Of a stretch of 64,000 nucleotides of DNA, positions 12,335-62,903 are shown in pieces. Location: assembly GCA_903834785.1 (NCBI GenBank), contig CAILKP010000064.1:1-64000 (forward strand), read 5' to 3'. Position numbers and translations under genes: made by a program. The notes beneath the pieces are model-generated. The model had not been told where the DNA came from, searched no databases, and was given only the letters and a program-made list of their open reading frames with translations. Every line of letters begins with the position of its first letter. Position 1 is the first letter of the stretch. The DNA is from an uncultured bacterium (GTDB lineage: Bacteria; Planctomycetota; Phycisphaerae; Phycisphaerales; UBA1924).

Positions 12335-13591
12335 ATGACCCGCAACCGCCTCGCCACCCTGCTCATGGGCACCGCACTGGCCCTCTCCCAGCTCGCCGGC
12401 ACCCCCGCCGCGCTGGCGCAAGTTCCAGCAACCAACGCCTTTACGTATCAGGGCGAGCTGCTCGCCGGCGGCACCGCCGTCGATGGCGCCCGTGATTTCA
12501 AGTTCCGGCTCTTCAACGCGGCAACCGGCGGCACCCAGATCGGCGCGGAACTCATCGCCTCCGGCCTCGTCGTCACCGGCGGACGCTTTGCCGTTGAACT
12601 CGACTTCGGCTCCAGCCCGTTCACCGGTCAGGCCCGCTGGCTTGAGATCGACGTCAGCGACAACGGCAGCGGCGCCCCCTACACCACCCTCGCCCCGCGG
12701 CAGCCCCTCGCCGCCGTGCCATACGCGCTGTACGCCCTCAATGGCCCGGCAGGACCTGCTGGGCCCACAGGTCCGCGGGGTCCCGTCGGTCCGCAGGGGT
12801 CGGCTGGGCCTCAGGGGCCTCAAGGGCTGCAGGGCGTTCCCGGCATCGGAGTTCCCGGTGCTCCCGGCCCTATCGGCCCTCAGGGATTCCCTGGTCTTTC
12901 CGGCCCCCAAGGAGCCACCGGGCCAATCGGGCCGCAAGGCGTTCCGGGCCCGCAGGGTCCAGTCGGCCCGGCGGGCCCGACTGGTATCACCGCCTCCATC
13001 AACGCCCAGTTCAGTCAGGATGACCGCTCGGGCTGGACCCGTATCGAGGCACTCGACGATGACACCTGCTTCAGCAACATTCCCCTCGGGTTCACCTTCA
13101 CCGGATGGGGCCGTGCCGACGCTACGGTGAGCGTCTCGAGCAACGGCGTGCTGTTCTTTGGTCAGCAGTGCAGTACCTGGTTCAGCAATTCCTCCCTTCC
13201 CACCGCCATGAGCCAGGACCCCTTCTTCGCGTTCTTCTGGGACGATCTGCGAGATTCCGGCAACACGGAGTTCATTGAGTACGCCACCACCGGATCACCG
13301 GGCGGCCGCGTCTTCAACCTCTACTTCCGCAACCGGCTTTACTCCACCTTCTGCGGCACCAACGCCGTCAACATCATGATCTCCGTCCATGAAGGCTCGA
13401 ACCTGATCCGCGCTTCGTACACGGGCGTCACCCCCTGCCTCGACATGAAGGGTGCAAGTGCGACGTTCGGCCTTCAGGGACCCGGCGGAGCTGCCGCCCA
13501 GTCGTTCCTGAACATCAGCACCAACGCGCCGATCTTTGATGACAACAATCCCGGGGGGCAGTCCATCACCCTTCAGCCGCCGCGGCAGTGA
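12335..13591 (+). CDS. Secreted collagen-like repeat protein
   Basis: A 418-residue exported protein. Residues 1-29 form a signal peptide with an AxA-type cleavage site (ALAQV). Residues 30-135 are a beta-rich domain ending in the [12 protein letters not shown] motif, which precedes collagen-like regions in many bacterial surface and tail-fibre-like proteins. Residues 137-217 are Gly-X-Y triplets (about 26) with one interruption (PGIGVPG), expected to trimerise as a collagen helix. The C-terminal 200 residues are rich in aromatics and contain four or five cysteines; the fold is not recognised. The ATG at 12335 places the signal peptide at the N-terminus; the open frame extends upstream without support. 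It is likely an extracellular or surface protein. Confidence 0.82.
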
Positions 13592-13684
13592 GCACAAGCA
13601 GAGCCGCGATTCCGCGGGGCGAGCGGCCATCCCAGCACTCGCAGGCCGGAGTTCGGACACGCGGAACAGAATCAGCACGCCCCG

Positions 13685-13714
13685 CCCCGCAGGGAAACTT
13701 CCTGCGGGGCTTTT
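13685..13714 (+). terminator. Terminator after the collagen-like gene
   Basis: CCCCGCAGG (13685-13693) pairs with CCTGCGGGG (13701-13709) across GAAACTT, followed by CTTTTC. This is a canonical rho-independent form. Confidence 0.8.
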
Positions 13715-13884
13715 CATTCCGGTCACCCGTCTCGCGAGCTCGCGTCCACGTTCAACCGCCCGGCATCCGCCCACCCCACTTCAGGCAGCGCTCGCCCGCA
13801 TCCGTCCGTATCGCGTATGCATGGCCGCTGATCACCGCCTCGCAACAGTCCCGGGCACGCAGCTTGCAGCGATTCTCAGCAGTT

Positions 13885-13911
13885 CTGATCGAAATCAGGT
13901 CCTTCTAGCAT
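13885..13911 (+). promoter_or_regulatory. Inverted repeat and -10-like box before the usp gene
   Basis: CTGAT-CGAA-ATCAG (13885-13898) sits where a -35 region would be, seven bases before TAGCAT (13906-13911). The repeat could be an operator overlapping the promoter. No regulator can be named. Confidence 0.35.
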
Positions 13912-13932
13912 TACTCAAACAAGGAGGTCACC

Positions 13933-14919
13933 ATGACATCGCTCGCCCCCGCCCCCCGCACGCTGAGCACCATCGTCGTCGGAACCGACTTCACCCCCTG
14001 CTCCGCCGCCGCGATCGCCCAGGCCGTCCGCATCGCCGCGTGGTCGGATGCCGCCGTCCACGCCGTCCACGTGATCGACACCAACGTGGTCATCGACATC
14101 GAGTCGGCCCTGTCCCCGATGCAGCACAACATCCGCGAAGGCCTCATCGCCGACGCTCGCCGCACGTGGGCGACGTTCTCCCGCACCATCCCAGGTGCGG
14201 CGGGTCTGGCACTGCAGGTCCTGATCAACAACCGCACCGCGGGACTGCTCGACACCACACGCACCTCCCGCGCCGACCTGCTCGTGCTCGGGGCCTTCGG
14301 TCACCAGACACCCGACGTCGGCTTCGGAACCGTGGCCAACGCCTGCGTTCGTTCCAGCCCGGCCGATGTCCTGCTCGTCCGCGACACACGAACCGGTCCA
14401 TTCCGCTCCATCGTCGCCGCGGTCGATTTCTCGCCCACCTCATCCGCGGCACTCCAGCAGGCGGCGTTCTTCGCCGCACGCGACGGTGCCGAACTGCACA
14501 TCCTCCACGTCTACTCGCCACCGTGGCTCGCACTGGACTACGGCGACGCCACCGCCCTCATCGCCCCCTATATCGAGCAGCAGTACCGCACCGGGGTGGA
14601 AGATCACCTCCAGCAGCTCGCCGGCCCGCTGGCCACGGCCTACCCGGGTCTGCGCGTCCGCACCCACTGCCACGATCGCAGCGGCCACCGCTCCGGCATC
14701 GCCCACTTTGCCGCCTCCGTCGCAGCAGACCTCATCGTCCTGGGCACCCGAGGCAGATCAAATCTCCGCGATATCCTCCTAGGCAGCACCGCAGAGAAAG
14801 TGCTGGCCACCTCGCCCTGCTCGGTCCTGGCCGTCAAGCCGCTCACTGTCGAGGCCTCAGCGTCCGCCGAGCCCGTCGCCGAGACACGCCGCCCAGTGCA
14901 GATGCACACGCCCGCCTGA
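13933..14919 (+). CDS. Tandem universal stress protein (two UspA domains)
   Basis: A 328-residue cytoplasmic protein with two UspA folds in tandem (about 12-150 and 155-300). Each repeat starts with the strand-D motif (VVGTDFTPCS and VAAVDFSPTS). The second ends with the ATP-binding type loop LGTRGRSNLRDILLGSTAEKVL, while the first has a degenerate loop (LGAFGHQTPDVGFGTVAN). Such proteins are induced by stress and often bind ATP. A strong AAGGAGG ribosome binding site lies six bases before the ATG. The dehydrogenase gene follows 45 bases later, consistent with co-expression under low oxygen or stationary conditions (inference). Confidence 0.9.
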   Translation: MTSLAPAPRTLSTIVVGTDFTPCSAAAIAQAVRIAAWSDAAVHAVHVIDTNVVIDIESALSPMQHNIREGLIADARRTWATFSRTIPGAAGLALQVLINNRTAGLLDTTRTSRADLLVLGAFGHQTPDVGFGTVANACVRSSPADVLLVRDTRTGPFRSIVAAVDFSPTSSAALQQAAFFAARDGAELHILHVYSPPWLALDYGDATALIAPYIEQQYRTGVEDHLQQLAGPLATAYPGLRVRTHCHDRSGHRSGIAHFAASVAADLIVLGTRGRSNLRDILLGSTAEKVLATSPCSVLAVKPLTVEASASAEPVAETRRPVQMHTPA

Positions 14920-14964
14920 ACATCTCACCCTGCCCACCCCGCACTCCTCCTGAGACCGCCCTCC

Positions 14965-16008
14965 ATGCGTATCGCCGTCTACTCCGTTCAGCCGTGGGAA
15001 GCGCCCTTCCTGCTCCGGGCTGGCACACGCCCCGACCAGCCCCGCCACGAACTGGTTTCCCTCGATGCGCGGCTCTCCCCGGCAACCGCCAATCTGGCAG
15101 CCGGCTTCCCCGCCGTCTCCATATTTGTCGGTGACGACGCCTCCGCCCCGGTCCTCCGCACCCTCCACGCCGGCGGCACGCGCCTGCTTGCACTCCGCTC
15201 CGCCGGCTTCAACCACGTCGACATCGCCGAGGCCGATCGCCTTGGCCTGGCCGTCCTGCGCGTCCCCGCGTACTCCCCCCACTCCGTGGCCGAACACGCC
15301 GTCGGCCTCATGCTCACCCTCAACCGGCACTTCCACCGCGCATTCAACCGCGTGCGGGAGCAGAACTTCTCCCTCTCCGGCCTCATGGGCTTCGACATGC
15401 ACGGCAAGACCGTCGGCGTGATCGGCACCGGCACCATCGGCGCTGTCGTCTGCCGCATTCTCTCGGGCTTCGGCTGCGCCGTGCTGGCCAGCGACCCGGT
15501 CACCAATCCCGCCTGCACCGCTCTCGGCGTGCAGTACGTTCCACTCGCCGAGCTCTACCCCCGCTGCGACATCATCACGCTTCACTGCCCGCTGACACCC
15601 GCAACCCGCCATCTCATCAGCGCCGCGGCACTGGCCGCCATGAAGCCCGGCGCAATGCTCATCAACACCAGCCGCGGAGCCGTGATCGACACCCGCGCCC
15701 TCATCGCCTCGCTCAAGGCCAGCCACATCGGCTCCGTCGGGCTTGATGTCTACGAAGAAGAGGGCGACCTGTTCTTCAAGGACCTCTCCGATCAGGTCAT
15801 CCAGGACGATGTCTTCGCCCGGCTGATGACGTTCCCCAACGTCTTCATCACCGCCCACCAGGGCTTCTTCACACGCGAGGCCTGCACCGCCATCGCCCAG
15901 ACGACAATCGATAACGCCTCCGACTTCGAACTCGGCCGCATCAACCCGGCCAACCGCGTCGGCACGCACCATCTGGCCCCGGCTCCGCCCACGAACGCCG
16001 CCCGTTGA
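14965..16008 (+). CDS. D-2-hydroxyacid dehydrogenase, probable D-lactate dehydrogenase
   Basis: A 347-residue NAD-dependent enzyme of the D-isomer-specific 2-hydroxyacid dehydrogenase family, closest in pattern to fermentative D-lactate dehydrogenase (LdhA). The NAD-binding Rossmann motif is GVIGTGTIG. The catalytic arginine is in INTSRGAVID, the glutamate in GLDVYEEEG, and the histidine in FITAHQGFF. The YEEE/F-rich segment around FFKDLSDQVIQDD is typical of LdhA. It would reduce pyruvate to D-lactate to regenerate NAD+. It lies just after the tandem universal stress gene and converges on katG across a 15-bp-stem terminator. Confidence 0.85.
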   Translation: MRIAVYSVQPWEAPFLLRAGTRPDQPRHELVSLDARLSPATANLAAGFPAVSIFVGDDASAPVLRTLHAGGTRLLALRSAGFNHVDIAEADRLGLAVLRVPAYSPHSVAEHAVGLMLTLNRHFHRAFNRVREQNFSLSGLMGFDMHGKTVGVIGTGTIGAVVCRILSGFGCAVLASDPVTNPACTALGVQYVPLAELYPRCDIITLHCPLTPATRHLISAAALAAMKPGAMLINTSRGAVIDTRALIASLKASHIGSVGLDVYEEEGDLFFKDLSDQVIQDDVFARLMTFPNVFITAHQGFFTREACTAIAQTTIDNASDFELGRINPANRVGTHHLAPAPPTNAAR

Positions 16009-47803: not shown

Positions 47804-48439
47804 TCAGGCGGCCTTGCGGCTGGCGGTGCGATTGCCGCCGGCGTTGAACTTGAAGTTGGTGGTCTTGCGGTTGCCCGTCGACTTGAAGGCCTTGACTGCC
47901 TTGGTGGCTTTGCTAGCGGAGCGAGTGCTGGTGTTCTTCGCCTTCGAGCCGCGGACCTTGGTGGTGTTGGCGGCGCTGGTGGTGTTGGTGTTCTTGGTCG
48001 CCTTGCCGTTCCCGTTGTTGCTGGTGCGGTTGCCGGTCGCCTTGGCGTTTGTCTTCGTGTTGGACTTGGTGTTCGTCTTGCCGTTTGCGTTGCTGTTCAC
48101 GGTGGTGTTTTTCGTGCTCTCGGTGGCAGCGAGGTTGGCGTTGCGGGCGGCGAAGGTGGCCGGAGTGAAGACGTAGCTGCCGACGGTGTTCCAGTAGCCG
48201 GTGAAGGCGTTGCCGTTGAAGGGGTTGTTCCAGGTGCTCTTGGCGGCGTTGTTGTTCGTCGTCGAGCGGGAGCGCTTCGTGCGGCTGGCGGTCTTGGTGG
48301 CCTCGGCGGTGATGGTGTTCTTGGAGTTGCGGGAGCTGGTGCTGCCGGTCTTGTTGTTGAACTTACTGTTGAACTTGTTGGCGGACTTGGTTGTGCTCGT
48401 GCGGGCGTTGTTCTTCGTGCTGGTCTTGGTGTTAGGCAT
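47804..48439 (-). CDS. Asn/Thr/Lys/Ser-rich low-complexity basic protein
   Basis: A 211-residue protein of striking composition: Asn, Thr, Lys, Ser, Ala and Arg make up most of it and acidic residues are nearly absent, so it is strongly basic. Residues 1-70 and about 115-211 are repetitive (for example [15 protein letters not shown]) and likely disordered. A middle part (about 71-110) is different, with aromatic residues ([27 protein letters not shown]). No signal peptide is seen. AGGA lies before the ATG at 48439. It could bind nucleic acid or polyanions like histone-H1-type tails; that is inference. No family recognised. Confidence 0.7.
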
Positions 48440-48658
48440 GTGCGTTTCCTGACAGGGTGCGGACGCGGCACGAAGCGAACGTGACGCGAGAGGTGGGGCC
48501 GAAGGGCCCGGAGAGGGGATATCGGCCGCCACGGGGGTGCAGTTGACCGCGCCGCGGCAAAACGGGGGCGGGGTGAATGCTGGATTGGCAGATGGGGCGG
48601 GTTTTCCCGCAGCGTTGCGCGTGGGGCGTGGGGGGTTCCCGCAGCGTGAGGGCGGGAT

Positions 48659-49806: not shown

Positions 49807-50367
49807 TCAGAGGGTTTCGATTTCCTTCTGCTTGGCGGTGACCAAGGCGTCGGAGTCGGTCTCGAACTTCTTGAGGAGATCCTGAATCTCCTTCTTGAGG
49901 GTCTCGAGCTCGTCTTCCGGGATTCCGGTGCCCTTGAGGCCGTCGGCGTGCTTGTTGCCGTCGCGGCGGGCGTTGCGGAAGGTGACCTTGGCTTCCTCGG
50001 CGTTCTTTTTGCAGAGGGCGACAAGCTGCTTGCGGCGGTCGCCGGTGAGGGCGGGGATGTTGATGCGGAGGGATTTGCCGTCGCTGATGGGGTTGAAGCC
50101 CAGGCCGGAGGACTCGACGGCACGCTTGATGTCACCGATGGAACCAGTGTCAAAGGGCTTGATGAGCAGCTGGGTCGGCTCGGGCACGGAGATGGAGGCG
50201 ATGGCCTTGAGGTCCGTGGTGGAGCCGTAGTACTCGACCTTGATGAACTCGATGATCGAAGGAGACGCCCGGCCGGTGCGGATGCTCTTGAGTTCCTTCT
50301 TGAGGTGCTCCATGGACTTGTTCATGGACTCTTCGACTTGCTTGAGAATGGAATCAGGGGTGGCCAT
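49807..50367 (-). CDS. frr: Ribosome recycling factor
   Basis: A 186-residue protein of normal length that, with EF-G, splits the post-termination ribosome. Conserved elements are LRTGRASPSIIEFIKVEYYG near residues 28-47, the VPEPTQLLIKPFD strand, and the NARRDGNKHADGLK segment. The three-helix bundle and inserted domain are intact. pyrH lies 111 bases upstream on the same strand, a widely conserved order. Confidence 0.97.
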   Translation of the reverse strand: MATPDSILKQVEESMNKSMEHLKKELKSIRTGRASPSIIEFIKVEYYGSTTDLKAIASISVPEPTQLLIKPFDTGSIGDIKRAVESSGLGFNPISDGKSLRINIPALTGDRRKQLVALCKKNAEEAKVTFRNARRDGNKHADGLKGTGIPEDELETLKKEIQDLLKKFETDSDALVTAKQKEIETL

Positions 50368-50478
50368 GGGAAGGTTCCGGAAAAACGGGATTCGTCGCGG
50401 GACGAGAAAGTTCTATCGATGGTGAACGTGAGCGGCGCGAGCAGGGTGGAGGCCGGTGCCGGGGCTCGATCCGGGGGA

Positions 50479-51240
50479 TCAGCTGGAGACGATGGTGCCG
50501 ATGGAGGCACCTTCCACAACGCGGCGGATGTTGCCGTTGGGCTTGAAGTCAAAGACGACGATGGGCAGATCACGCTCCTGGCACATGGCGAAGGCGGTCA
50601 TGTCCATGACCTTGAGGTTCTTGACCATGGCATCGCGGAAGCTGATGCGGTCAAACCGGGTGGCCGTGGGGTCCTTGCGCGGGTCGGCGGAGTAGATGCC
50701 GTCGACCTTGGTGGCCTTGAGGATGACCTGGCAGTCCAGTTCCAGTGCACGGAGGGCGGCACAGGTGTCGGTGGTGCAGAAGGGATTGCCGGTGCCGGCG
50801 ACCATGATGACCACCCGCTTCTTTTCCATGTGGCGGAGCGCCCGCTGGCGGATGAAGGGTTCGGCGACGGCCTTGACCTCGATGGCGGACATCACGCGGG
50901 AGTCGACGCCGACGGCCTTGAGGGCTTCGCGGAGGGCCAGACCGTTGATGATGGTGGCCAGCATGCCCATGTAGTCGGCCGTGGCCTGGTGGATGTGGCC
51001 GATCTTGGAGAGCTGGGCACCGCGGATGAAGTTGCCGCCACCGACGACGATGGCCATCTGGACGCCGGTCGCCAGGGCATCCTTGACCTGTTTGGCGATC
51101 TCGTCGATCTCGATGGGGTCAAGTCCGGACTGGCCGCCGGTGCCGAGGGACTCACCGGAGAGCTTGAGCAGGACGCGTTTGAATGGAGAGCCGGGCGCCG
51201 GGCGGGGGGTGGATGTGGCGGCGGCGGTGTTGCTGTTCAT
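50479..51240 (-). CDS. pyrH: UMP kinase
   Basis: A 253-residue amino-acid-kinase-fold enzyme that phosphorylates UMP to UDP. Motifs are LLKLSGESL at the start, the VVGGGNFIRG glycine loop and GTGNPFCTTDTCAALRA. UMP contacts fit KATKVDGIYSADPRKDP. About 15 residues of Ser/Thr/Ala-rich sequence precede the conserved start. It is followed by frr. tsf and rpsB, often upstream, are replaced by a divergent VWA-ExbBD operon. Confidence 0.97.
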   Translation of the reverse strand: MNSNTAAATSTPRPAPGSPFKRVLLKLSGESLGTGGQSGLDPIEIDEIAKQVKDALATGVQMAIVVGGGNFIRGAQLSKIGHIHQATADYMGMLATIINGLALREALKAVGVDSRVMSAIEVKAVAEPFIRQRALRHMEKKRVVIMVAGTGNPFCTTDTCAALRALELDCQVILKATKVDGIYSADPRKDPTATRFDRISFRDAMVKNLKVMDMTAFAMCQERDLPIVVFDFKPNGNIRRVVEGASIGTIVSS

Positions 51241-51531: not shown

Positions 51532-52515
51532 ATGACGACCGTCTCCACAGCTCGATCACCTGCCGCACTGACCCAGACGGGGGGTGACGGCGTTCCGCGC
51601 CGGCGCGGGAACGCGTCGCTGTTTGTGATCGCGATGCTGTCATCGGCGGTGCTGCATGCAACGCTGCTGCTGATCGGGTCGGTGATTTATCTGACGAATC
51701 TGAAGATCGAAGATGCACCAGCGGGTCAGGGCGTCGGGGCTGCGATTTCAGTGGCGACGATCACCGAGGCCGAACTTGGCGCACTGGAGCGGGGCATGCT
51801 GGACACGGCAGGCCCGGCAGTGGATGAGGCGGCGACGAGTGCCGGCATGATGCAGTCGCTACCGGGGGTTGAATCACCGGGCGGTCAGGCGACGCCGGGA
51901 TCGGGCGATCTGGGCGGCGTGGGGGCGGGGATGGGCGGCGCCGGCGCGGGTGACGGGATCGGCATTGGTGACGGATCGGGCGGGTCGGGCGGCGGCGGGA
52001 CGAAGTTCTTCGGGGTTGAGGCGCGGGGGATGCGGTTTGCGTACATCGTGGATGTCTCGGGTTCGATGGAGGGCGAGAAGATCGCGTACCTGCGTGATCA
52101 GCTTGCCACCTCGATCAACGGGATCATCGATACGGGGTCGTACTTTGTCGTTGCGTTCTCAACTGACGTGATGCCGCTGCACCCGGCGATTCGCTGGATG
52201 GACGCTTCGACCAAGAACAAGCGGGAGTCCGGGGCGCTGATCAACCGGCTGCGAGCCGGGGGCGGAACCGAGCCGGGCGGGGCGTTTCAGATGGTCTTTG
52301 GGATGCGGCCGAAGCCCGACGCGATTTACTTCATGACCGATGGGCAGTTTGATGCCGGTGTCGCTGAAACAATCGCGCGGGTGAACAAGGGTTCGGCACG
52401 GGTTCCGGTGCACTGCATCTCGCTGATCGACGATTCGTCGGCCGACCTGATGAGGCGGATCGCCAGGGACTCAGGCGGTACCTACACGCACATCAAGGGG
52501 ACTGGAAGACCGTGA
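51532..52515 (+). CDS. Membrane-anchored von Willebrand factor A protein
   Basis: A 327-residue protein that opens the eight-gene operon. A membrane helix (about 30-55) follows a short Arg-containing cytoplasmic head. Residues 110-157 are a Gly-rich linker. The VWA domain (about 158-325) has a complete MIDAS start, D174-V-S176-G-S178, preceded by the KFFGVEARGMRFAYIV strand common in planctomycete VWA proteins, with the TDG (FMTDGQF) aspartate later. Such domains bind partners through a divalent metal. The stop overlaps the next start as GTGA, giving translational coupling. I start at the ATG at 51532, because the upstream frame has no support. Confidence 0.85.
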   Translation: MTTVSTARSPAALTQTGGDGVPRRRGNASLFVIAMLSSAVLHATLLLIGSVIYLTNLKIEDAPAGQGVGAAISVATITEAELGALERGMLDTAGPAVDEAATSAGMMQSLPGVESPGGQATPGSGDLGGVGAGMGGAGAGDGIGIGDGSGGSGGGGTKFFGVEARGMRFAYIVDVSGSMEGEKIAYLRDQLATSINGIIDTGSYFVVAFSTDVMPLHPAIRWMDASTKNKRESGALINRLRAGGGTEPGGAFQMVFGMRPKPDAIYFMTDGQFDAGVAETIARVNKGSARVPVHCISLIDDSSADLMRRIARDSGGTYTHIKGTGRP

Positions 52516-53900
52516 CCGGCAGCCGACATCCTGCTGAAGGCAGGCTTTGCGCCGCCGTGCTGCTGGCAGCCACGTTGCTGCCGTGGGCCGGTGCGCACGC
52601 CGAGACGGTGGTGACGCTGCGCGGGGGCAAGGGCTCGGTCCGCGGAGATGTAATGAGCATGACGGGCAGCGGGCTGGCCATCCGCAGCGGCGGGAATGTG
52701 ACGAACATCATGTGGGGCCGGGTGGCGACGGTGACCGGCGATGCCGAGGCGGAGTTCGCTGCCGGGTACGCCAAGCTGGCCGATGGGCTGTGGCGGATCG
52801 AGGCACGGGCGGCACGCGGTGACTATGACGGTGCTGAAGTGCTGTACGAAAAGCTGGACGCGGCAGGGGTGCTGAAGGCGGCAACAGGCCCAAGCCAGCG
52901 GCGGCTGCAGGAGACACTGACAGGGCTTCGGCTGGCACGCGGGTTCGTCACGGGCGGGATGAAGAACTACCTGCAGGCGATTGCCGCGACGGCGACGCTG
53001 ACAGCAACCGGCGAGGACGCGGGAGCTGGCGAGGGCGGAGCGGTCTCGATGGGCAGCGCGGTGATCGACCCGGCCACGGGCCTGTGCCCGAGTTTGCCGC
53101 CGGTGCTGAACCCGGGGCTTTCGGGCGGTGCTGCCGCGGCGCTTGCACGGTGGCCGGGATGGGATGAACTGATCGCTCTGCCGGGCACTGCGGGCGAAGT
53201 CGCGCGGTGGTATCAGGCCGAGGCACTTGTTGCAGCGGGCCAGCGCCCGGCGATGCTGGATCTGGCGGTGGTGGCACCCGCACCTGGCGAGGGCGCTGGG
53301 GCAACGGGCGGGCCCGAGGTGCTGGTACGGAGCATGGTTGTGGCGGCCCACGGCAACGCGGAGCAGCGGAAGGCGGCACGGAGTTGGCTGCAGCGGAAGC
53401 TCTCGGCCGAACTCTCGCGAAGCAAGGCCGCGGCGACGGCGTCGCCGCCGGGGGGAACTGGAGCAAGCGGGACCGGGGCGGGCAACAGCGCAGCGGGCGG
53501 GGCAGGGACCGCGGATGACGCGGCGGCGGACCGCGGGTGGATTGAGGCGTGGTGCCGGCTGGGCATTGGCCGAAGCTATCTGCGTGAAACCGAAGCCGGC
53601 GACCGGCGTAAGGGCCTGCTGGAACTGATGTACCTGCCGGCGGTGTACTCCGAGCGTTTGCCGCTGCCTACGGCGATGGGCTTGGTGGAAGCCGCGGCGG
53701 AACTTGACAAGCTGGGCGATGGCGAGTCGGCACGGACGCTGCGAGCGGACGTGCAGAAACTGATTCCCGGAGCCGCCCTGGAGGCGACGCCGGCGAGCGG
53801 AGATGCAGGGACGGGCGGGGGAGGGGGCGGGACCGGAACACCATACTCATCGGGCGGCGGCGCGATGCCGCTGGTTCCTGAGCAGGAGAAACGCAAGTGA
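52512..53900 (+). CDS. Secreted protein of the VWA-ExbBD operon
   Basis: A 462-residue protein with a signal peptide (about 1-30, ending AHAET). A short beta-rich part (about 31-85, VVTLRGGKGSVRGDVMSMTGSGLAIRSGG) is followed by a helical, repeat-like region (about 90-420) and a Gly/Pro-rich tail. I recognise no family. The GTG start at 52512 overlaps the VWA stop, and its own stop overlaps the ExbB start at 53897. It is probably a periplasmic component made in fixed ratio with the motor genes. Confidence 0.72.
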   Translation: MTGSRHPAEGRLCAAVLLAATLLPWAGAHAETVVTLRGGKGSVRGDVMSMTGSGLAIRSGGNVTNIMWGRVATVTGDAEAEFAAGYAKLADGLWRIEARAARGDYDGAEVLYEKLDAAGVLKAATGPSQRRLQETLTGLRLARGFVTGGMKNYLQAIAATATLTATGEDAGAGEGGAVSMGSAVIDPATGLCPSLPPVLNPGLSGGAAAALARWPGWDELIALPGTAGEVARWYQAEALVAAGQRPAMLDLAVVAPAPGEGAGATGGPEVLVRSMVVAAHGNAEQRKAARSWLQRKLSAELSRSKAAATASPPGGTGASGTGAGNSAAGGAGTADDAAADRGWIEAWCRLGIGRSYLRETEAGDRRKGLLELMYLPAVYSERLPLPTAMGLVEAAAELDKLGDGESARTLRADVQKLIPGAALEATPASGDAGTGGGGGGTGTPYSSGGGAMPLVPEQEKRK

Positions 53901-54739
53901 TTCAATCGCTGACAGGCGAGATCGTGATGTTTGTGATGCTTCAGGCCGGGAACGCCGCAGCCACACCGGCAGCGGCCGGTGCTGCTGGCGGGGTGGCACC
54001 CATCCTGGAGAGCAAGTCGCTGCTTGGGTACATCGCGGCGGGCGGCTTTGTGGCGGTGGTGCTGCTGCTGCTGTCGGCCCTGGCGGTGGGGCTGGTGATT
54101 GCCAACGGGGCGATGCTGCGGAAGACCGCGCTGGCCAAGCCCGGAACGACCAACTCGCTGGAGATGCTGCTGCGGGAGCGCAAGGTGGATCAGGCGATCG
54201 CCTTCTGCCGCGCAGCTGAGAACGACTGCTTCCTGACTCGTGTGCTGGGTGCGGGCCTGGCAAAGGCAAGGTCCAGCCAGTTTGGCGTGCTGGAAGCCAA
54301 GCCCGTTATGGAGGAAGCAGGCCGGCGCGAAGCCGACAAGCTGGACCGCGTGACCTACGCCATCCGCGTGGTTGCGGACCTGGCCCCCATGCTGGGGCTG
54401 CTGGGCACGGTCATCGGCATCATCAAGGCGTTTGCGACCATCGGCGGGGCGGAGGGCGCGAGCCGGTCGGCGCAGCTCTCGGCCAACATGTCCGAGGCGC
54501 TGGTGAACACGGCCTTGGGCCTGGCGATCGCCATTCCGTGCCTGATGTGCCACGCGTTCTTCAAGCGGCAGACGGAGGCGGTGCTCGGTGAGCTTGCTGA
54601 TACGGCCGACCGGCTGATCTCCATCCTGCAGCAGCCGGCGGCGGGCGTGCGGCAGGCCGCAGCGGTACCGGCCGCACCGGCTGCCGCAGCACCGGCGGGT
54701 AACGGCAGCGTGCCGCTGGCGGCGGGGGCGACAGCGTGA
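53897..54739 (+). CDS. exbB: MotA/TolQ/ExbB proton channel protein
   Basis: A 280-residue inner-membrane protein. Three membrane helices lie near 40-68, 150-178 and 190-218, with a cytoplasmic loop between the first two. The conserved blocks LAPMLGLLGTVIGIIKAFATIG and MSEALVNTALGLAIAIPCLMCHAFF are the family core. With ExbD it converts proton flow into mechanical work in the envelope. It starts with GTG overlapping the previous stop by four bases and its stop overlaps the next GTG start in the same way. No TonB or TolA gene is in the operon, so the driven partner is probably one of the operon's own proteins. Confidence 0.93.
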   Translation: MIQSLTGEIVMFVMLQAGNAAATPAAAGAAGGVAPILESKSLLGYIAAGGFVAVVLLLLSALAVGLVIANGAMLRKTALAKPGTTNSLEMLLRERKVDQAIAFCRAAENDCFLTRVLGAGLAKARSSQFGVLEAKPVMEEAGRREADKLDRVTYAIRVVADLAPMLGLLGTVIGIIKAFATIGGAEGASRSAQLSANMSEALVNTALGLAIAIPCLMCHAFFKRQTEAVLGELADTADRLISILQQPAAGVRQAAAVPAAPAAAAPAGNGSVPLAAGATA

Positions 54740-55158
54740 AGTTCAAGAGCCGCGGCGGCGAGCACGAGGAACTGACACTCAACGTCACAGCGCTGACGGA
54801 TGTGGCGTTTTTGATCATCATCTTCTTCATGTTCTCGACGCACTTTCATCGGACACAGTTGCGGCCGATGGACCTGCCCAAGGAGCAGGGTGCCGAGGCG
54901 GTGGAGTCGGCACTGCCGCTGGTCATTGAGATTGATCAGCAGGGCGGGCTGTCCATCGCTGGCGGCGGGCCGACGGAGTTGGCGACTATCGCGGCGTCCA
55001 TCCGCGGGAATGCCGCGACGGCCGGCCAGGGCGGCAAGCCCGAGATTGTGATTCGAGCAGACCGGCGTGCGGCAGCGGTGCACCTGAACCGGTTGTCGTC
55101 GGAACTTGCGAAACTCGGGATACGGGATTGGAAGCTCGCAACCGCACCCGCGGGGTAA
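54736..55158 (+). CDS. exbD: ExbD/TolR biopolymer transport protein, first copy
   Basis: A 140-residue protein with one N-terminal membrane helix (about 14-33). It carries the essential aspartate in LTDVAFLIIIFFM, which conducts protons with ExbB. A periplasmic domain (about 45-135) follows, including VIEIDQQGGLSIAGGG and IVIRADRRAAAVHLNRL. It begins with GTG overlapping the ExbB stop. A second, divergent ExbD-type gene follows 66 bases later. Confidence 0.9.
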   Translation: MKFKSRGGEHEELTLNVTALTDVAFLIIIFFMFSTHFHRTQLRPMDLPKEQGAEAVESALPLVIEIDQQGGLSIAGGGPTELATIAASIRGNAATAGQGGKPEIVIRADRRAAAVHLNRLSSELAKLGIRDWKLATAPAG

Positions 55159-55224
55159 GACAGACCGCGGCGGGCACGACAGCAGCGTTGATTCAAGGAC
55201 GGCAACGACAGGCAGCAGCAATCG

Positions 55225-55692
55225 GTGAACTTTCACAAGCGAACATCCCGAGACGAGAACGGCATTGTGCTGCCACTGGTAGCGCTACTGGACGTTATCT
55301 TCTTCATGCTGTTTTACTTCATGGCGGCCGGCTCACTTACGGCACCTGAGACGGAACTGGCGGCGGCGATCTCCGCCGAGGCGTCAGGGCCGGGTGCGGC
55401 GAGTTCGAACTTCACGACCCAGGTGTTGTACGTTGAGCCCGACACGCAGGCCAAAGCCGGGGCGGGAACGGCCGGGGCCTCGGGCGGGCCGGAGCGGCCG
55501 TGGCGGTATCGCATCGGTGCGCGGGTCATGAGCGGAAAGGCGGAGCTGGAAGGCATCTTGCGGGATCTGCCCAAGCCGCCGGGGATTATCATCAAGGCGG
55601 CGGATGAAGTGAATGTGGAGGCGGTCGCGGCGGCCCTGGAGGCCGCGCGGATGTCAGGATTCAGCAAGATCAGCTATGTCGCCGGACAGTGA
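55225..55692 (+). CDS. ExbD/TolR-like protein, second copy
   Basis: A 155-residue protein. One membrane helix (about 15-36) has the conserved aspartate in LLDVIFFMLFYFM. The periplasmic part differs from the first copy: a Gly/Ala-rich insertion (about 70-90) precedes a beta-alpha region ending in AARMSGFSKISYVAG. It starts with GTG at 55225. Paired, non-identical ExbD proteins beside one ExbB suggest a hetero-dimeric stator (inference). The next gene starts 17 bases before its stop. Confidence 0.86.
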   Translation: MNFHKRTSRDENGIVLPLVALLDVIFFMLFYFMAAGSLTAPETELAAAISAEASGPGAASSNFTTQVLYVEPDTQAKAGAGTAGASGGPERPWRYRIGARVMSGKAELEGILRDLPKPPGIIIKAADEVNVEAVAAALEAARMSGFSKISYVAGQ

Positions 55693-58600
55693 GCACACTT
55701 CGAACTGCGTTTCCTTGCCGCGGCGGCGTGGCGGCGAGCGTGCGCGGGTGTGGGGTGCCGCACATGCGGCGGTGCTGCCCCTGCTGCTGGGCCAACTGGC
55801 GGGAACGGCGGTGGCATGGAGCGGGATGGAACTGCAGCCCCCGGCACCGCCGACCGCGCCGGCGGCGGATCCCGCAGCTGCTGAGGGCGAGGCGGTGCTG
55901 CCCGTGCCCGTTGCGACGACAACAGGAGCGTCAGGGAAGGCGGTGCCGAGCGGATCGCTGGACCTCGTTGAGCAGTACCTGCAGTCACGCGGGCTCAAGT
56001 CGCTGCTCGTTGAGCACCTGACGCAGCGGTTTGAGCAGGCAACCGGGGCGGAACGCGCCCGAATGGGCGAGCGGCTGGCACGGCTGATGTTCCAGCAACT
56101 CGGGGCAACGTCCGATCTGGCCGAGCGGCAGCGGCTGGAAGAGCGGGCGAAGGTGTTCATTCGCTCGGTGGCGGAGTCCAAGAGCATCGGACTGCGGGTG
56201 GAGCTGGCACGGACGAGTTACTTGCGGGCGGAAGCCGATGCAGAGCTGCTGCGGGTTGCCGCGGGCAGCGAAGAGGGACGGCCGCTGCTGATTTCAACCA
56301 TGAACCAGTTGCACCAGCAGCTGATGGCACTGGGGCTTGAGGCAACCCGGCGGGTGCGTCAGCTCGAGGAGCGGCTGGATGCTGGCAAGTCCACACCACA
56401 AGATGATGAGGACGTGACCGATGCGAGGGCGATGCGCTCACGGGCGTACTACTTCGCCGGATGGGCGGCGGTCTATGCCGGAGATCTGATGACCGCGTCA
56501 GCATCGACCCAGCGGCCGCCCGGCGTGCCGACGGCTGAAACGCTGGCGGCCAGTGCGCTGGAGTGCTTCGGATGGCACACAGGGCGAGCCGCTCTGGAGC
56601 GGGCGAGCCTGGACCGGCTGCCGCGTGTCATGCTCAAGCACGAGCACATCGCCCGTGCGGTGCTGGGGGTCTCGGCGGCACTCTCGCTGCTGGGGCAGGA
56701 CAGCGAGTCGCTGCGGTGGCTGGAGACCATTGAGACCGAGCCGCTGGCTGCTGCGGCGGCCAAGGCGGCGGCGCCGCTGCGGCGGGTGGAGGTGCTGATG
56801 AACGCGGCGCGGTACAGCGACGCGCGGAAACTGCTGTTGTCACTGCGTGCGTCGGGCCCGGAGGGCGGTCCGACGACGGTAATGCCGACAGCGACGGACC
56901 CGTGCCTATCGCCCACGGTGGCCCGCCACGTCGCGGCAACGGCGCTTCGGATGCTCCGCGACAGCAAGCCACCGGATGCCAGCGGTGAACTGCCAAAGAT
57001 CGCCGAGCTCGCGCTGTCGGACCTGATCGCAACCGGACGGGTGAGCGATGTACTGGCGCTGGCCGAGCGGTACGGCACAGCAACGCTCAGCGACAGCGGG
57101 TTTGTCGGCGTGTTTGTGCGCGGCATGCTGCGGCTGGAGTCGGCCCTGGGAGAGCTGCGGACGGCACGAGGCGGCAAGCTTGACGAACTGCCGGCAACCG
57201 AGCCGGTGATGGTCAACCGGCTGCGGGAGGCGGCGGCGATGCTCGACGCCGCGGCGGCACAGCCCGATGCGGGCAAGTTTCCGGCAGACCTTTCCCGTGC
57301 GCTCTACAACGCGGCGCGGGGGCTGTACTACGCGGGCATTGACACCGATGCGGCGGAGCGGGGTGAACGTGCCTTCCGGCTGGCGGAACGAATCAACCCT
57401 GTGCTGGCTCAGGACTCGCTGTGGCTGGCGATTGTGGCCACCGAGCGTGAAGCGGCAAAGCCGGGGGCCGGACTGATCGTTTCGGAGAAACTCGGATCGA
57501 CGATCTCGCTGTTTGTCACACGCTTCCCGGGCTCGGTCCGTGCGGCGACGCTGCTGGTGCGGCGGCCGGACAAGACCGGCCTGACGGATGCACAGGCCGT
57601 TGAGACACTGCTGGCCGTGGACGCTGGATCACCGCTCTACGCCGACTCGCGACGGACTGCCGCGAAGATCCTGTATCGGATGTTCCGCGAGCACAGGCCG
57701 GGGACGGCAGCGGGCGACAGGCAGTTTGCAGCGCGACGGTTCCTGGCCGTGGCCGAAGCGGTGCTGGAGCCCGACCGCAGGGCGGCAATGGCGGCTTCCG
57801 GCGATGCCGGCAAGAAGCAGGCCGAGACGGTGATGGTGCTGATCCGCCAGATGCTTGATGCGACGCTGACGCTCGAGCCACCCGACACGGCGCGAAGCGA
57901 GCAGTTGCTGGCGACGGCTGAGTCACTGCTGGGCTCGGCAGGGCTGGACCGTTCGCGGCTGGGTCGTGAACTTCTCTTCCGACGGCTGCAGATGGCGATC
58001 GGAAGGCGGGACTTTGATCGTGCCGAGGTGCTGCAGAAGGAGATTGAGGCACCCGGCGATGGGCTGGATCCACGGTTTGTTGAGTCCGGTCGACGGCTGC
58101 TGTACCTCAACGCGTCGGCACGGTTCAAGGCACAACTGGCGGCCAGGAAGCCGGACGAAGACGAACTGCTGCGTGAAGCCAAAGCGGTTGTCAATCATGG
58201 GCGACGGCTGATCGAAACCGTGGGAACGACGTCCAGATCGATGACCGATACCTCCGTGCTGGTGCTGCATCAGGACGTTGCCTCTGCTGCTCAATGGATG
58301 TACGACAAAACGGGCGAGTCCGAGTACCGCGAGCTTGCGATGCGGCTGGACGAAGCCGTGCTGGCGGTGCGGCCGACAGACGGAGCCTCGGTCTCCCGTA
58401 TGGCCACGCTTGCGGAGGCGGCCGGGGACGATGCCAAGGCGCTGGGCTATTGGCGCGATCTGGCGAACACGCTGCCGCAGACCAGCGACCGGTGGTTTGA
58501 GGCACGGTTCAACACCATCCGGCTGATGGCCAAGAGCGACCCGGCGACCGCTCTGACGCTGCTGAGCCAGCATAAGGTGCTGAACCCGACCTTTGGCCCG

Positions 58601-58735
58601 GCACCATGGGATGCTCGCTTCGGGGAACTGCAGGCCAAACTGCTGGGTGCCCAGCCTCCGAACGCGGCAACGCCACCCGCAGCGACAGCACCGGCCGGCG
58701 GAGTTGCCCAGCCGCAGGGCGGAGGTGGACGATGA
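55676..58735 (+). CDS. Large alpha-helical secreted protein of the VWA-ExbBD operon
   Basis: A 1019-residue protein. A basic N-terminus and hydrophobic stretch (about 25-48) look like a signal or anchor. The rest is helical and Ala/Leu/Arg-rich, with TPR-like spacing in several places (for example NAARYSDARKLLLSLRASG and DFDRAEVLQKEIEAPGD). It reads like a long solenoid. No catalytic motif is seen and no named family is recognised. It starts within the ExbD-like gene and ends at ATGA shared with the next gene. Confidence 0.75.
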   Translation: MSPDSEHTSNCVSLPRRRGGERARVWGAAHAAVLPLLLGQLAGTAVAWSGMELQPPAPPTAPAADPAAAEGEAVLPVPVATTTGASGKAVPSGSLDLVEQYLQSRGLKSLLVEHLTQRFEQATGAERARMGERLARLMFQQLGATSDLAERQRLEERAKVFIRSVAESKSIGLRVELARTSYLRAEADAELLRVAAGSEEGRPLLISTMNQLHQQLMALGLEATRRVRQLEERLDAGKSTPQDDEDVTDARAMRSRAYYFAGWAAVYAGDLMTASASTQRPPGVPTAETLAASALECFGWHTGRAALERASLDRLPRVMLKHEHIARAVLGVSAALSLLGQDSESLRWLETIETEPLAAAAAKAAAPLRRVEVLMNAARYSDARKLLLSLRASGPEGGPTTVMPTATDPCLSPTVARHVAATALRMLRDSKPPDASGELPKIAELALSDLIATGRVSDVLALAERYGTATLSDSGFVGVFVRGMLRLESALGELRTARGGKLDELPATEPVMVNRLREAAAMLDAAAAQPDAGKFPADLSRALYNAARGLYYAGIDTDAAERGERAFRLAERINPVLAQDSLWLAIVATEREAAKPGAGLIVSEKLGSTISLFVTRFPGSVRAATLLVRRPDKTGLTDAQAVETLLAVDAGSPLYADSRRTAAKILYRMFREHRPGTAAGDRQFAARRFLAVAEAVLEPDRRAAMAASGDAGKKQAETVMVLIRQMLDATLTLEPPDTARSEQLLATAESLLGSAGLDRSRLGRELLFRRLQMAIGRRDFDRAEVLQKEIEAPGDGLDPRFVESGRRLLYLNASARFKAQLAARKPDEDELLREAKAVVNHGRRLIETVGTTSRSMTDTSVLVLHQDVASAAQWMYDKTGESEYRELAMRLDEAVLAVRPTDGASVSRMATLAEAAGDDAKALGYWRDLANTLPQTSDRWFEARFNTIRLMAKSDPATALTLLSQHKVLNPTFGPAPWDARFGELQAKLLGAQPPNAATPPAATAPAGGVAQPQGGGGR

Positions 58736-61700
58736 GCTACGGCCCCGAAGTTGAGGCACCAACAGATCCGGAGCAGATCCGGCGGCTGATCGAAATGTTC
58801 TTTGGCCTGGACGATGCGGAGATGTGGGCCCCGGAGCGGCCGCATGCCGCGCTTGGTCTGGTGCCGACGGCAAACTCACCGGCGATTGTGATGGCCGCGC
58901 TGCAGGACCGGCTGGCTGTGGTGCGCGGCTCGCCGCTGGCGGGCACTGCTCACGCCATGGCGGCGGAGGCATTGCTCAAGCAAGCAGCATCGGTGGTGCT
59001 GCTGGGAAGCGTCAACCGGCCGCCGCGGATCAGTGAGGTTGCGGCACAGCGGGCGGCAGAGGCGAACAAACAGGAGGCGGCGGCCAGCACGAGTGCCACG
59101 GGCAAGCCGGCGGCACCGAAGGCGATGCCCAAGCCGCTGCCGGAGGCCGAGCCGATTCCGCTGGCTGCTGATGCCGACGGGCCTTTGACTGCCGGAACGC
59201 GAGTCCCGCAGTCCGGTCAACCGACGCCCCCCCTGCCCCCCCCGCTGCCACCGAATGTCTCGCCGATGATGCCCCAGGCATCCCCCGCGGTGCGGCCTGC
59301 GGCCATGCCGGTCTCGCCACAATCGCCTCGCCCATGGACGCCGCAGGAGCAGGCAGTTGCCGCGCTGCGCCAGCGGGCAATCGCGATTCTCTCCAGCCGC
59401 GGACGGGTGGATGCCCAGACCCTGCGTGAACTGCAGACCGCGGCCGTGACGCTGGGCCTGCCGGCGGCGGCGGCGACGCAGGTGATCTCGCAACTGGCCA
59501 ACGGCGGCGCCGCTGAGCCCGCACGTGCCGTTTCAGCGTCGAGCCCGACAGCGGCCGCAGGTACGGTCGTGTCTGCGGTGCCAGCCCACGCCCAGCCAGC
59601 GGCAACTCCGGCTGCCGCGCGGGGCGAGTCACTGAACGACGACCAGACTGAATCGGAAGACGACCCCAGTTCGCGGCTGCTCAAGCGGGTGATCATCGGC
59701 GGACTCGCTCTGGTGACACTGTGCGTGGTGGCCCTCTCGGCCTCCCTGCTGCTGAGCAAAGGTGGCGGCGGCACAGGGGCGACACCCGCAGGTGGGCCGG
59801 CCGTGCCGGTGCCCGGACCGGCATCCGCCGGGCCAACGCCGACGATGGAACCACCGACCAAGCCGGTTGCCAAGCCTGTGGTGCCTCAGATTGCCGCCGA
59901 TCAGGTTGTGCCCTCGGTTCGTGATGCCGCGGCGGCGGCGGCGGCGGTCCGGGCACTGGCGGATGAACCCGGGCGGGACGGCCCGTCGGCCAAGACCGTG
60001 CGGGAGGTACTTGTACTCCTCTGCCGCACGTGGCCGCGGCTGGACAAGGGCCAGCGCGTTGCAGTCACGGAGGTGGCGACGGATCTCATCAGTCGACTGC
60101 CAGCGGCAGGGCAGGTGACAGTGATTTCGGCCTTGGGGCCGCAGGGCAGCCGCCGCGTGGTAGACCCGGCGGATGTGGTTGAACTGACGGGCCGGGCGGG
60201 GCTGGTGGCCCGGCTGTCCCGCGAGCGTGAACTTGGCGCACAGTCCCGTGCGGAAGTGCGGCGGGTACTGACCGCGTACGGCGCGGGTGATGGCGGGTCC
60301 TTTGATGTCGGGGCAGCGGCCGCGCTGCGGACCGTGCCGCTACGACTGGTGGCGTCTGGCGCGAGCGCGGCGGACCTGCGGCTGGCGTGGCAGGCGTACG
60401 AACTTGTTGCCGCGGCGCTGGCCAACTCACCGGTGGCATCGGCTGATCAGCCGCAGCTGACAGATGCACAGGACATGGCACTACGGGAGGCCGCGACGCC
60501 GTTCATGCTCGAGGCCCTTGAGCAGATGGTGCGTGGCGGGCCGGACCCGCTTTCGTCCAAGCCGATGCACGACAGCCTCGCGGAGGTGGCCGGGCGACTG
60601 ACGTGGTCAGCACAGTCGGCGGCGCGGGCCAGATTGATGGCTTGGTTTGATGAACCGGGCATCAGCACGGTGCGGCTGGGGATTGTGACGGCGGCGATCT
60701 CCCAGCGGTCCGGAACTGAAGGCATCGACCTGACGATGGCGCTGTCGAGCTCGGCTGACCAGACGTCGCGGCAGGAGATGCGGGCACGGTACGCCGAGGC
60801 GTGGAAGCTCACCAACGCGCTGCCGCCGGCCAGCCGGCAGGAGTGGCTGGCACGACTGGGAGGGCTGAGCGCCAAGGTGGACTCCGATGCAGGACGGTTG
60901 TTTGTCGCGGCTGCCGCGGCGGATGCAAACCGGTATTTCTTCACTGGGTTCAGCGGGACGATGCAGCCTTCGGAGCCACTGATTCCTGAGACAATCGCGG
61001 CGATGATCAACGCGGCGAGCAACCCGGGGCTGCTGCCGAACTCGATGAGTTACAACGTCCGCGATGGAGCGCAGTTGGCGGAGTCCTGGGGCATCCGCTA
61101 CTTCGCCGAGCGCAACGCCGCGGTGCGGGTGGAGCTGGTACGCCAGCTGGAAAGCCGCGGCCCGCTTGACCCGGTGGATGCCGACGCGCTGCTGGACGCC
61201 GCGGTATTCGGCGGCTCGAGCGAACTGAGGAATGCTGCGGGGCGGGCGGCGGCCAAACGCTCGAGTGAGGCGCTGGTGATGACCTCGCTGCTGGAGGTGC
61301 TCCCCAGAATGAACCGCTCGCGGGCCTCGGCGGAGCTCGTGGCGCTGATGACCCTTCGCCAACTGCCGGATCCGGAATCTCCTGAGTACGCGCTTGCCAG
61401 CCGGCGCGCGGTGATTGAGCGGCTGACGGATCTTCTGGCGATGGCGATGCCAATCGCGGACGTGGAGTCGCAGGCAACGCGGCTGGCGGAGATGTACCGG
61501 GCCACCGCCAATGGACTGGGCGCGAACGTTGCGGTGCTCTCGCCCGACGGCTTTGCCGGCGACCTGCCGGCGGAAGCGGCGGAACTGACGTTTAACCGGC
61601 TGCGATCTCGCGGGCTGCTGCTGTCTCCACCGGCGGAGGTGCAGCTGACGCTGCAGCAGGTCGAAACGCTTGCCGCCGCCCGGGCAGCCGCGGCGGCAAC

Positions 61701-61914
61701 GCCGATCCGCCGGTTTGCAGCCTGGCAAAGCTCGCTGCTCGAGCTGACCGCGCTGCTGGTGGCTTCGGACCGGCCGGCGTGTGCCAAAGCGGTGCGCGAG
61801 GTGCTCGATGAAACCGCGGACCGACGCCGCAAGGCGACAGGCATTGCCCAGCAGATCATGCACACAGAGATGGCCATGACGCGGATCTGGATCGCCTGGG
61901 AGGCCCACCGATGA
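58732..61914 (+). CDS. Large membrane protein of the VWA-ExbBD operon
   Basis: A 1060-residue protein. The N-terminal part (about 1-310) holds a short helical domain, a Pro/Ala-rich linker (about 120-200) and a helical segment (about 205-260, with ILSSRGRVDAQTLRELQTAAVTLG). A membrane helix lies at about 318-342. A second Pro/Gly-rich linker is followed by a helical 680-residue region, presumably extracytoplasmic. No family is recognised. Coupled by ATGA overlaps to the genes on both sides. Confidence 0.75.
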   Translation: MSYGPEVEAPTDPEQIRRLIEMFFGLDDAEMWAPERPHAALGLVPTANSPAIVMAALQDRLAVVRGSPLAGTAHAMAAEALLKQAASVVLLGSVNRPPRISEVAAQRAAEANKQEAAASTSATGKPAAPKAMPKPLPEAEPIPLAADADGPLTAGTRVPQSGQPTPPLPPPLPPNVSPMMPQASPAVRPAAMPVSPQSPRPWTPQEQAVAALRQRAIAILSSRGRVDAQTLRELQTAAVTLGLPAAAATQVISQLANGGAAEPARAVSASSPTAAAGTVVSAVPAHAQPAATPAAARGESLNDDQTESEDDPSSRLLKRVIIGGLALVTLCVVALSASLLLSKGGGGTGATPAGGPAVPVPGPASAGPTPTMEPPTKPVAKPVVPQIAADQVVPSVRDAAAAAAAVRALADEPGRDGPSAKTVREVLVLLCRTWPRLDKGQRVAVTEVATDLISRLPAAGQVTVISALGPQGSRRVVDPADVVELTGRAGLVARLSRERELGAQSRAEVRRVLTAYGAGDGGSFDVGAAAALRTVPLRLVASGASAADLRLAWQAYELVAAALANSPVASADQPQLTDAQDMALREAATPFMLEALEQMVRGGPDPLSSKPMHDSLAEVAGRLTWSAQSAARARLMAWFDEPGISTVRLGIVTAAISQRSGTEGIDLTMALSSSADQTSRQEMRARYAEAWKLTNALPPASRQEWLARLGGLSAKVDSDAGRLFVAAAAADANRYFFTGFSGTMQPSEPLIPETIAAMINAASNPGLLPNSMSYNVRDGAQLAESWGIRYFAERNAAVRVELVRQLESRGPLDPVDADALLDAAVFGGSSELRNAAGRAAAKRSSEALVMTSLLEVLPRMNRSRASAELVALMTLRQLPDPESPEYALASRRAVIERLTDLLAMAMPIADVESQATRLAEMYRATANGLGANVAVLSPDGFAGDLPAEAAELTFNRLRSRGLLLSPPAEVQLTLQQVETLAAARAAAAATPIRRFAAWQSSLLELTALLVASDRPACAKAVREVLDETADRRRKATGIAQQIMHTEMAMTRIWIAWEAHR

Positions 61915-62903
61915 GCCAGATCGAATCACATCGCGATGGCACTCCGAGGCTGCGGCGAGGCGGGCGGGTGGTGAAGCACCTGGCGATGGTGTTGGTTGTC
62001 GTGCTCGCGGTGCTGGCGGGCGATGGGCTGCTTCGTACCGGGCGGACATCTTCGGAAGCGGTCGCAGCATCCCGAGGTCCGAGCACCTTGCCAGCGTGGC
62101 TGGACAAGCGACTGGCAGCCCTCTCAGCCAAAGATGCGGAGGGGTACCTGCTGCTCGCTGAGGAGGTCGCGGATGCAGCACAGTCGCCCGACCAACTGAA
62201 ACTGGCCCGCCAGCTTTACACGCTGGCCCTGTCACTGGACGCTGCAGCCCAGCAGCAAACCGGCGCTGCGACAGGCATTGGCACCTCTGCATGCTACGGA
62301 CTCGCGGAGTTGACGCGTTCCCGAACCGAGCGTCGCTGGCTCATCGCCGTAGGCGAGTCTCTGCGGCCGCGGTCGGACCGGGTCCGGGCAGCACCGTTGA
62401 CGGATCAGCCGTCATCATGGGCAACAGCGATCAATCTGGTCGATGCGATCTCGCTGGCTCGCGCCGGTGAAGGCCGTCGGGCCGATGCCCTGCTGCGGCG
62501 GCCGGGCGTTGAGGACTTGCTCACACGCTACGAGCGGGCACTGGATGACCGGGGTTACTTCAACTCAGCAGGTCGGCTGCGGCGGTGGATCACCGACTGG
62601 CCGACCTGCCCCGAGTGCAACAACCGACGGGTCGTCAACCGTCCGGAGGGTGGCAAAACGATGCTCCGTCCGTGCAGCACGTGCAAAGGAAATCCGGGCC
62701 CGGCATTTGAACTCGATGAACTGGTCAACCAGGTGCGTTTCCAGTCTTCAGTGCTGTCGGGAATCTCCGCCTCGTGGGCTGCGGCATTGCTGACCGACGG
62801 CGGTGAGCCAATCCGTGAGCCGGAAGCCGGCGAGGTGGCTGCCTTGTACGGGGTTGATCCGGCGGCAACAAGTTGGCAGGACGGACGCTGGGTGAAGCCC
62901 TGA
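61911..62903 (+). CDS. Membrane protein with a C-terminal four-cysteine zinc-ribbon motif
   Basis: A 330-residue protein closing the operon. One membrane helix (about 22-40) follows a basic head. The middle (about 60-220) is helical. Near the end lie two CxxC pairs, C233/C236 (CPECNN) and C255/C258 (CSTCKG), 18 residues apart. This resembles DnaJ-type or rubredoxin-like zinc ribbons. By orientation it would be extracytoplasmic, where such motifs may bind zinc or a cofactor, or undergo thiol chemistry. Starts at ATGA shared with the preceding gene. Family not recognised. Confidence 0.75.
   Translation: MSQIESHRDGTPRLRRGGRVVKHLAMVLVVVLAVLAGDGLLRTGRTSSEAVAASRGPSTLPAWLDKRLAALSAKDAEGYLLLAEEVADAAQSPDQLKLARQLYTLALSLDAAAQQQTGAATGIGTSACYGLAELTRSRTERRWLIAVGESLRPRSDRVRAAPLTDQPSSWATAINLVDAISLARAGEGRRADALLRRPGVEDLLTRYERALDDRGYFNSAGRLRRWITDWPTCPECNNRRVVNRPEGGKTMLRPCSTCKGNPGPAFELDELVNQVRFQSSVLSGISASWAAALLTDGGEPIREPEAGEVAALYGVDPAATSWQDGRWVKP

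Follow-up and report, generated by a model that had tools for sequence, protein, structure and literature searches.

Which protein would an ExbB/ExbD proton motor drive in an operon where, according to the initial annotation, neither TonB nor TolA is present? The question is raised by eight genes on the forward strand at positions 51532-62903 of the window, the 64,000-nucleotide stretch of DNA from a Phycisphaerales bacterium analyzed here, which are named in their order VWA, G2, ExbB, ExbD1, ExbD2, BIG1, BIG2, and SM. Five junctions are 4-base overlaps (three GTGA and two ATGA), ExbD2 and BIG1 overlap by 17 bases, and ExbD1 and ExbD2 are separated by a 66-base gap; the eight coupled genes and the overlaps counted in the initial annotation all hold. 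At the same five junctions, a start codon is possible within the 4-base overlap in 28/32, 17/26, 21/28, 29/34, and 30/33 homologues, which argues that the coupling is not a matter of chance. These overlaps indicate translational coupling only, and the accompanying proposal that the subunit ratios are likely fixed goes beyond them. Pfam searches identified VWA_3 (E-value 2.3e-14), MotA_ExbB (7.1e-27), and ExbD in both ExbD1 (3.5e-15) and ExbD2 (6.4e-8), and the Pfam and NCBIfam profile searches returned no confident match for G2, BIG1, BIG2, and SM. A frr-like and a pyrH-like gene at 49807-51240 on the reverse strand diverge from the operon, and two genes of these sizes occupy the same divergent position in most Phycisphaerales neighborhoods. 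In addition, a low-complexity open frame with a very high content of Asn, Thr, Lys, and Ser is situated at 47804-48532 on the reverse strand of this GC-rich genome.

The motor proteins carry the hallmarks of an ExbB/ExbD proton motor, namely two channel threonines in ExbB and a transmembrane aspartate in both ExbD proteins. In the 280-residue ExbB/TolQ-type channel (53897-54739; Pfam and alignment), Thr171 and Thr205, which likely correspond to Thr148 and Thr181 of E. coli ExbB, are unchanged in 34/34 sequences, and Pro164 is also invariant. ExbD1 (140 residues, 54736-55158) and ExbD2 (155 residues, 55225-55692), both assigned by Pfam and alignment, belong to distinct families, and their transmembrane residues Asp22 and Asp23, respectively, are conserved in 33/33 sequences each. 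Both ExbD families look competent, and ExbD1 and ExbD2 could pair as a heterodimer.

The VWA protein (327 residues, 51532-52515) was delineated by Pfam, alignment, and hydrophobicity, the last of which also provided the predicted topology of the other operon proteins. It would have a cytoplasmic N-terminus, a single transmembrane helix at residues ~28-55, a Gly/Ser-rich linker at ~60-158, and a C-terminal VWA domain at ~170-322, where the VWA_3 match spans residues 172-319. The full MIDAS motif reported in the initial annotation is borne out, as D174-S176-S178 form a D-x-S-x-S motif that is invariant in 39/39 sequences. The only transmembrane helix contains the motif S38-x-x-x-H42 (SAVLH, residues 38-42, encoded at 51643-51657). 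In cryo-EM structures, the docking of TonB on ExbB and of TolA on TolQ is mediated by the SHLS motif, Ser-3X-His-6X-Leu-3X-Ser (PMC12905483); the helix of E. coli TolA shows the identical five letters SAVLH, that of E. coli TonB reads SVCIH, and SxxxH is also present in several TonB proteins of the same class. Among the 39 sequences from the order, Ser38 is kept in 38/38 and His42 in 37/39, against at most 27/39 for the other helix positions. Conservation of SHLS stops at the His, with Ala in 27/39 sequences at the Leu position seven residues after the His and no conservation of the Ser at the eleventh. A conserved hydrophobic stretch with the consensus VExAVxxxxEL, visible in the alignment only, follows the transmembrane helix, where predicted vWA force transducers have a motor box strand. 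A short phmmer query with the VWA helix against PDB chains gave no match.

SxxxH is found in 74/78 VWA homologues that have the helix and in 55/55 of those adjoining ExbB, compared with 6/509 (1.2%) unrelated N-terminal helices in the same DNA, an enrichment of ~80-fold. ExbB was not found within 4 kb of 19 SxxxH-bearing VWA genes, at least two of which are gene-calling misses; since this check is blind to uncalled ExbB genes (L043 and L117), the Fisher p = 0.006 that it yields carries less weight than the comparison with unrelated helices. Owing to the docking motif in its sole transmembrane helix, the VWA protein can be regarded as a TonB/TolA-type transducer and thus as the very partner that was held to be missing. 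Its coupling to the motor is very probable.

Force transducers with vWA domains have been predicted in Planctomycetes and other phyla by Williams-Jones et al. in 2025 (PMC12204202). According to the available part of that report, their genes in the PVC group adjoin tolQ, a TPR gene, and two genes resembling tolR, and an AlphaFold3 model of related vWA proteins places the helix at the TonB site. The core of the present operon is therefore already known as a prediction, and the earlier view of it as an unrecognized kind of system has been overtaken by this publication (PMC12204202). Of the features of the predicted class, a disordered linker of ~100 residues followed by a C-terminal vWA domain and the tolQ-like, paired tolR-like, and TPR neighbors are present here; judged by sequence, the core qualifies as a vWA force transducer in every feature with a clear outcome, and SHLS is kept in its first half alone. 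The first vWA family, of the Tichowtungia type, likewise has an N-terminal transmembrane helix with the docking Ser and His, a linker, and a C-terminal vWA domain, and has the same kinds of neighbors, with a TPR gene, one tolQ-like gene, and a pair of differing tolR-like genes. Compared with that family, the vWA gene stands first in the operon here, SHLS is reduced to its S and H, and G2, BIG2, and SM are additional, the available part of the source making no mention of them for that family (PMC12204202). The second family, TPH-vWA, shares a vWA domain on a transmembrane helix adjoining a TolQ-type gene but, as described in the same portion of the report, is without SHLS and ExbD neighbors, whereas the present operon has SxxxH and two ExbD genes (PMC12204202).

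There are also clear likenesses to and departures from the classical systems. In common with TonB-ExbB-ExbD, the operon encodes a channel with invariant Thr and Asp residues and a transducer with an SxxxH helix and a linker, but the VWA domain replaces TonB_C, two ExbD families are present, and most family genomes tested are without a Plug receptor. In the case of TolA-TolQ-TolR, the SAVLH helix of E. coli TolA and the placement of motor and transducer in one operon are shared; however, there is no TolB in the genomes tested and no TolA C-terminal domain, and large solenoid proteins occur instead.

G2 (462 residues, 52512-53900) starts with a signal peptide and would be periplasmic. Its AlphaFold2 model (pLDDT 81.5) consists of a five-stranded Sm/Hfq-like barrel at residues 32-75 followed by a TPR-like helical array, for which Foldseek returned only weak matches, to TPR proteins and, for the barrel, to Hfq, none at E≤0.001; the G2 profile matches its counterpart in other planctomycete classes with E=1.3e-12. 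BIG1 (1019 residues, 55676-58735) is a TPR-type solenoid with a weak signal sequence, the TPR families being matched in several homologues (best 4.5e-8) while the window protein itself has no confident Pfam match. The BIG1 profile matches its equivalent in other planctomycete classes with E=1.3e-27, and BIG1 belongs to the phylum-wide core. BIG2 (1060 residues, 58732-61914) has one transmembrane segment at ~312-345, and its AlphaFold2 model (pLDDT 76.8) contains helical N-terminal domains at 13-118 and 204-256 and an all-helical C-terminal solenoid at 389-1058; Pfam gave no match, and Foldseek gave weak matches to helical-repeat proteins, none at E≤0.001. SM (330 residues, 61911-62903), characterized by alignment, comprises a signal or anchor segment, a helical domain, and a zinc ribbon, CxxC...CxxCxGNPG, which is kept in most members and lost in one related family (f2).

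All eight genes occur in the same order in 29/40 neighborhoods from the same family and order, where the 29 complete loci are L034-L068 minus five motor-less loci and the contig-cut L063. The initial annotation had made its proposal of a distinct system depend on a conserved gene order and on large proteins outside the known partner families; the order is kept, the large proteins match no Tol-Pal or TonB partner family, and both results support its description of a self-contained, force-driven envelope machine. At the level of sequence, what is established is the anatomy of the operon, the conservation of its motor and docking residues, and the constancy of the gene order. Beyond the order, a six-gene core, VWA-G2-ExbB-ExbD-ExbD-BIG1, recurs in other planctomycete classes, where the gene after the core gives no profile match to BIG2. 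One genome of another class (G178) carries one eight-gene copy, with a weak BIG2 match (54 bits), and one six-gene copy.

In five family genomes (G005, G013, G016, G020, and G031), VWA-G2-BIG1-BIG2-SM is found without the motor trio, and the trio and a separate G2 are also absent from L070, a locus of G042 from another family. At L070, a 1172-residue BIG1 homologue (12468-15986), possibly a G2-BIG1 fusion, directly follows VWA. In the ExbB tree, trios located elsewhere in G013 (L076) and G042 (L088) fall inside the operon clade, so the motor has moved in these two genomes rather than vanished. G005, G016, G020, and G031 show only a paralogous ExbB-ExbD-ExbD type and no orthologous trio, and their VWA operons would have to rely on the paralogous one. 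A second ExbB-ExbD-ExbD trio, L098 (G000:C56, 3312-5058), and its equivalents L102 and L104 have no recognizable transducer adjoining them; the L098-type trio is a candidate motor for the VWA operons of the four genomes.

SxxxH is kept at all six motor-less loci, which bears on whether the VWA protein transmits force at all. VWA/MIDAS proteins often serve as chaperone cofactors, and the protein might regulate the channel or be its client, for example as a metal-dependent chaperone, with the transducer encoded elsewhere. We regard this as improbable, given that the motif persists where the trio is missing, that it is so strongly enriched over unrelated helices, and that TonB_C and TolB were not found in the window genome.

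An outer membrane on which such a transducer could act is present, judging from the Omp85 and OmpA-domain proteins in 10/10 genomes tested (Omp85 in 8/8 within the family). Of the family genomes tested, 6/8 lack the Plug domain that marks TonB-dependent receptors, including the two-contig G093 and the single-contig G153, and no Plug receptor was found in G024, which carries a complete operon (L058). A single Plug receptor was observed in each of G000 (L275, G000:C143:7947-8276) and G011 (L274). TonB_C was not found in G000, G024, G093, and G153, and TolB_N is absent in 7/7 genomes tested, the window genome included, with E. coli as a positive control. A substitution for TonB, in which the machine energizes outer-membrane nutrient receptors, would fit the one receptor each in G000 and G011 together with the missing TonB_C of G000, and in these two genomes a link to import may exist. 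As a general role, it is contradicted by the Plug-less genomes, all six of which carry the VWA gene; moreover, we know of no VWA fold that binds TonB boxes, and we consider this substitution very unlikely. A separate ExbB-ExbD-TonB operon (L096, G047:C43, 1486-3240) accompanies the eight-gene operon (L062) in one genome of this order; the VWA and TonB systems thus coexist in G047.

We conclude that the product of the operon is probably a trans-envelope machine of the general Ton/Tol type, driven by protons, with the VWA protein as its transducer. ExbB, ExbD1, and ExbD2 would form the inner-membrane motor, on which the VWA protein would dock through its Ser-x-x-x-His helix in the manner of TonB and TolA. 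Force would then travel along the flexible linker to the VWA domain, which may use its metal site to grip a partner. The periplasm would house G2, BIG1, SM, and the part of BIG2 that faces outward, as scaffolds or clients, and BIG2, spanning the inner membrane, could report to the cytoplasm. Like the docking and the force transfer, a task at the outer membrane or cell wall other than TonB-dependent import is inferred. Upkeep of the outer membrane or cell wall is the most likely such task, though we put it forward tentatively. It is more speculative that the Phycisphaerales machine replaces Tol-Pal in outer-membrane upkeep, that BIG2 relays the envelope state to the cytoplasm, and that the VWA domain catches and releases a partner at its metal site. 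An analogy to myxobacterial gliding proteins underlies another suggestion for vWA transducers, a motor for gliding or adhesion, which is raised in the available part of the Williams-Jones report (PMC12204202), but profile searches recognized no adhesin or gliding family in the operon. Almost every family genome also contains the VWA gene, mostly next to the pyrH- and frr-sized genes, as would befit a core function, and such a motor is unlikely here.

The fixed eight-gene order, G2, BIG2, and SM, the relocation of the motor, the SxxxH statistics, and the absence of receptors and TolB are new, as are the six-gene core in other planctomycete classes and the TPR nature of BIG1. Our survey finds the docking motif in every helix-bearing VWA protein that adjoins ExbB. 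No phenotype has been reported for vWA force transducers, which were predicted only recently and for which this locus supplies a conserved list of eight parts. With finished genomes in which neither TonB_C nor a receptor is detected, the envelope role of the motor can be tested free of TonB-dependent import.
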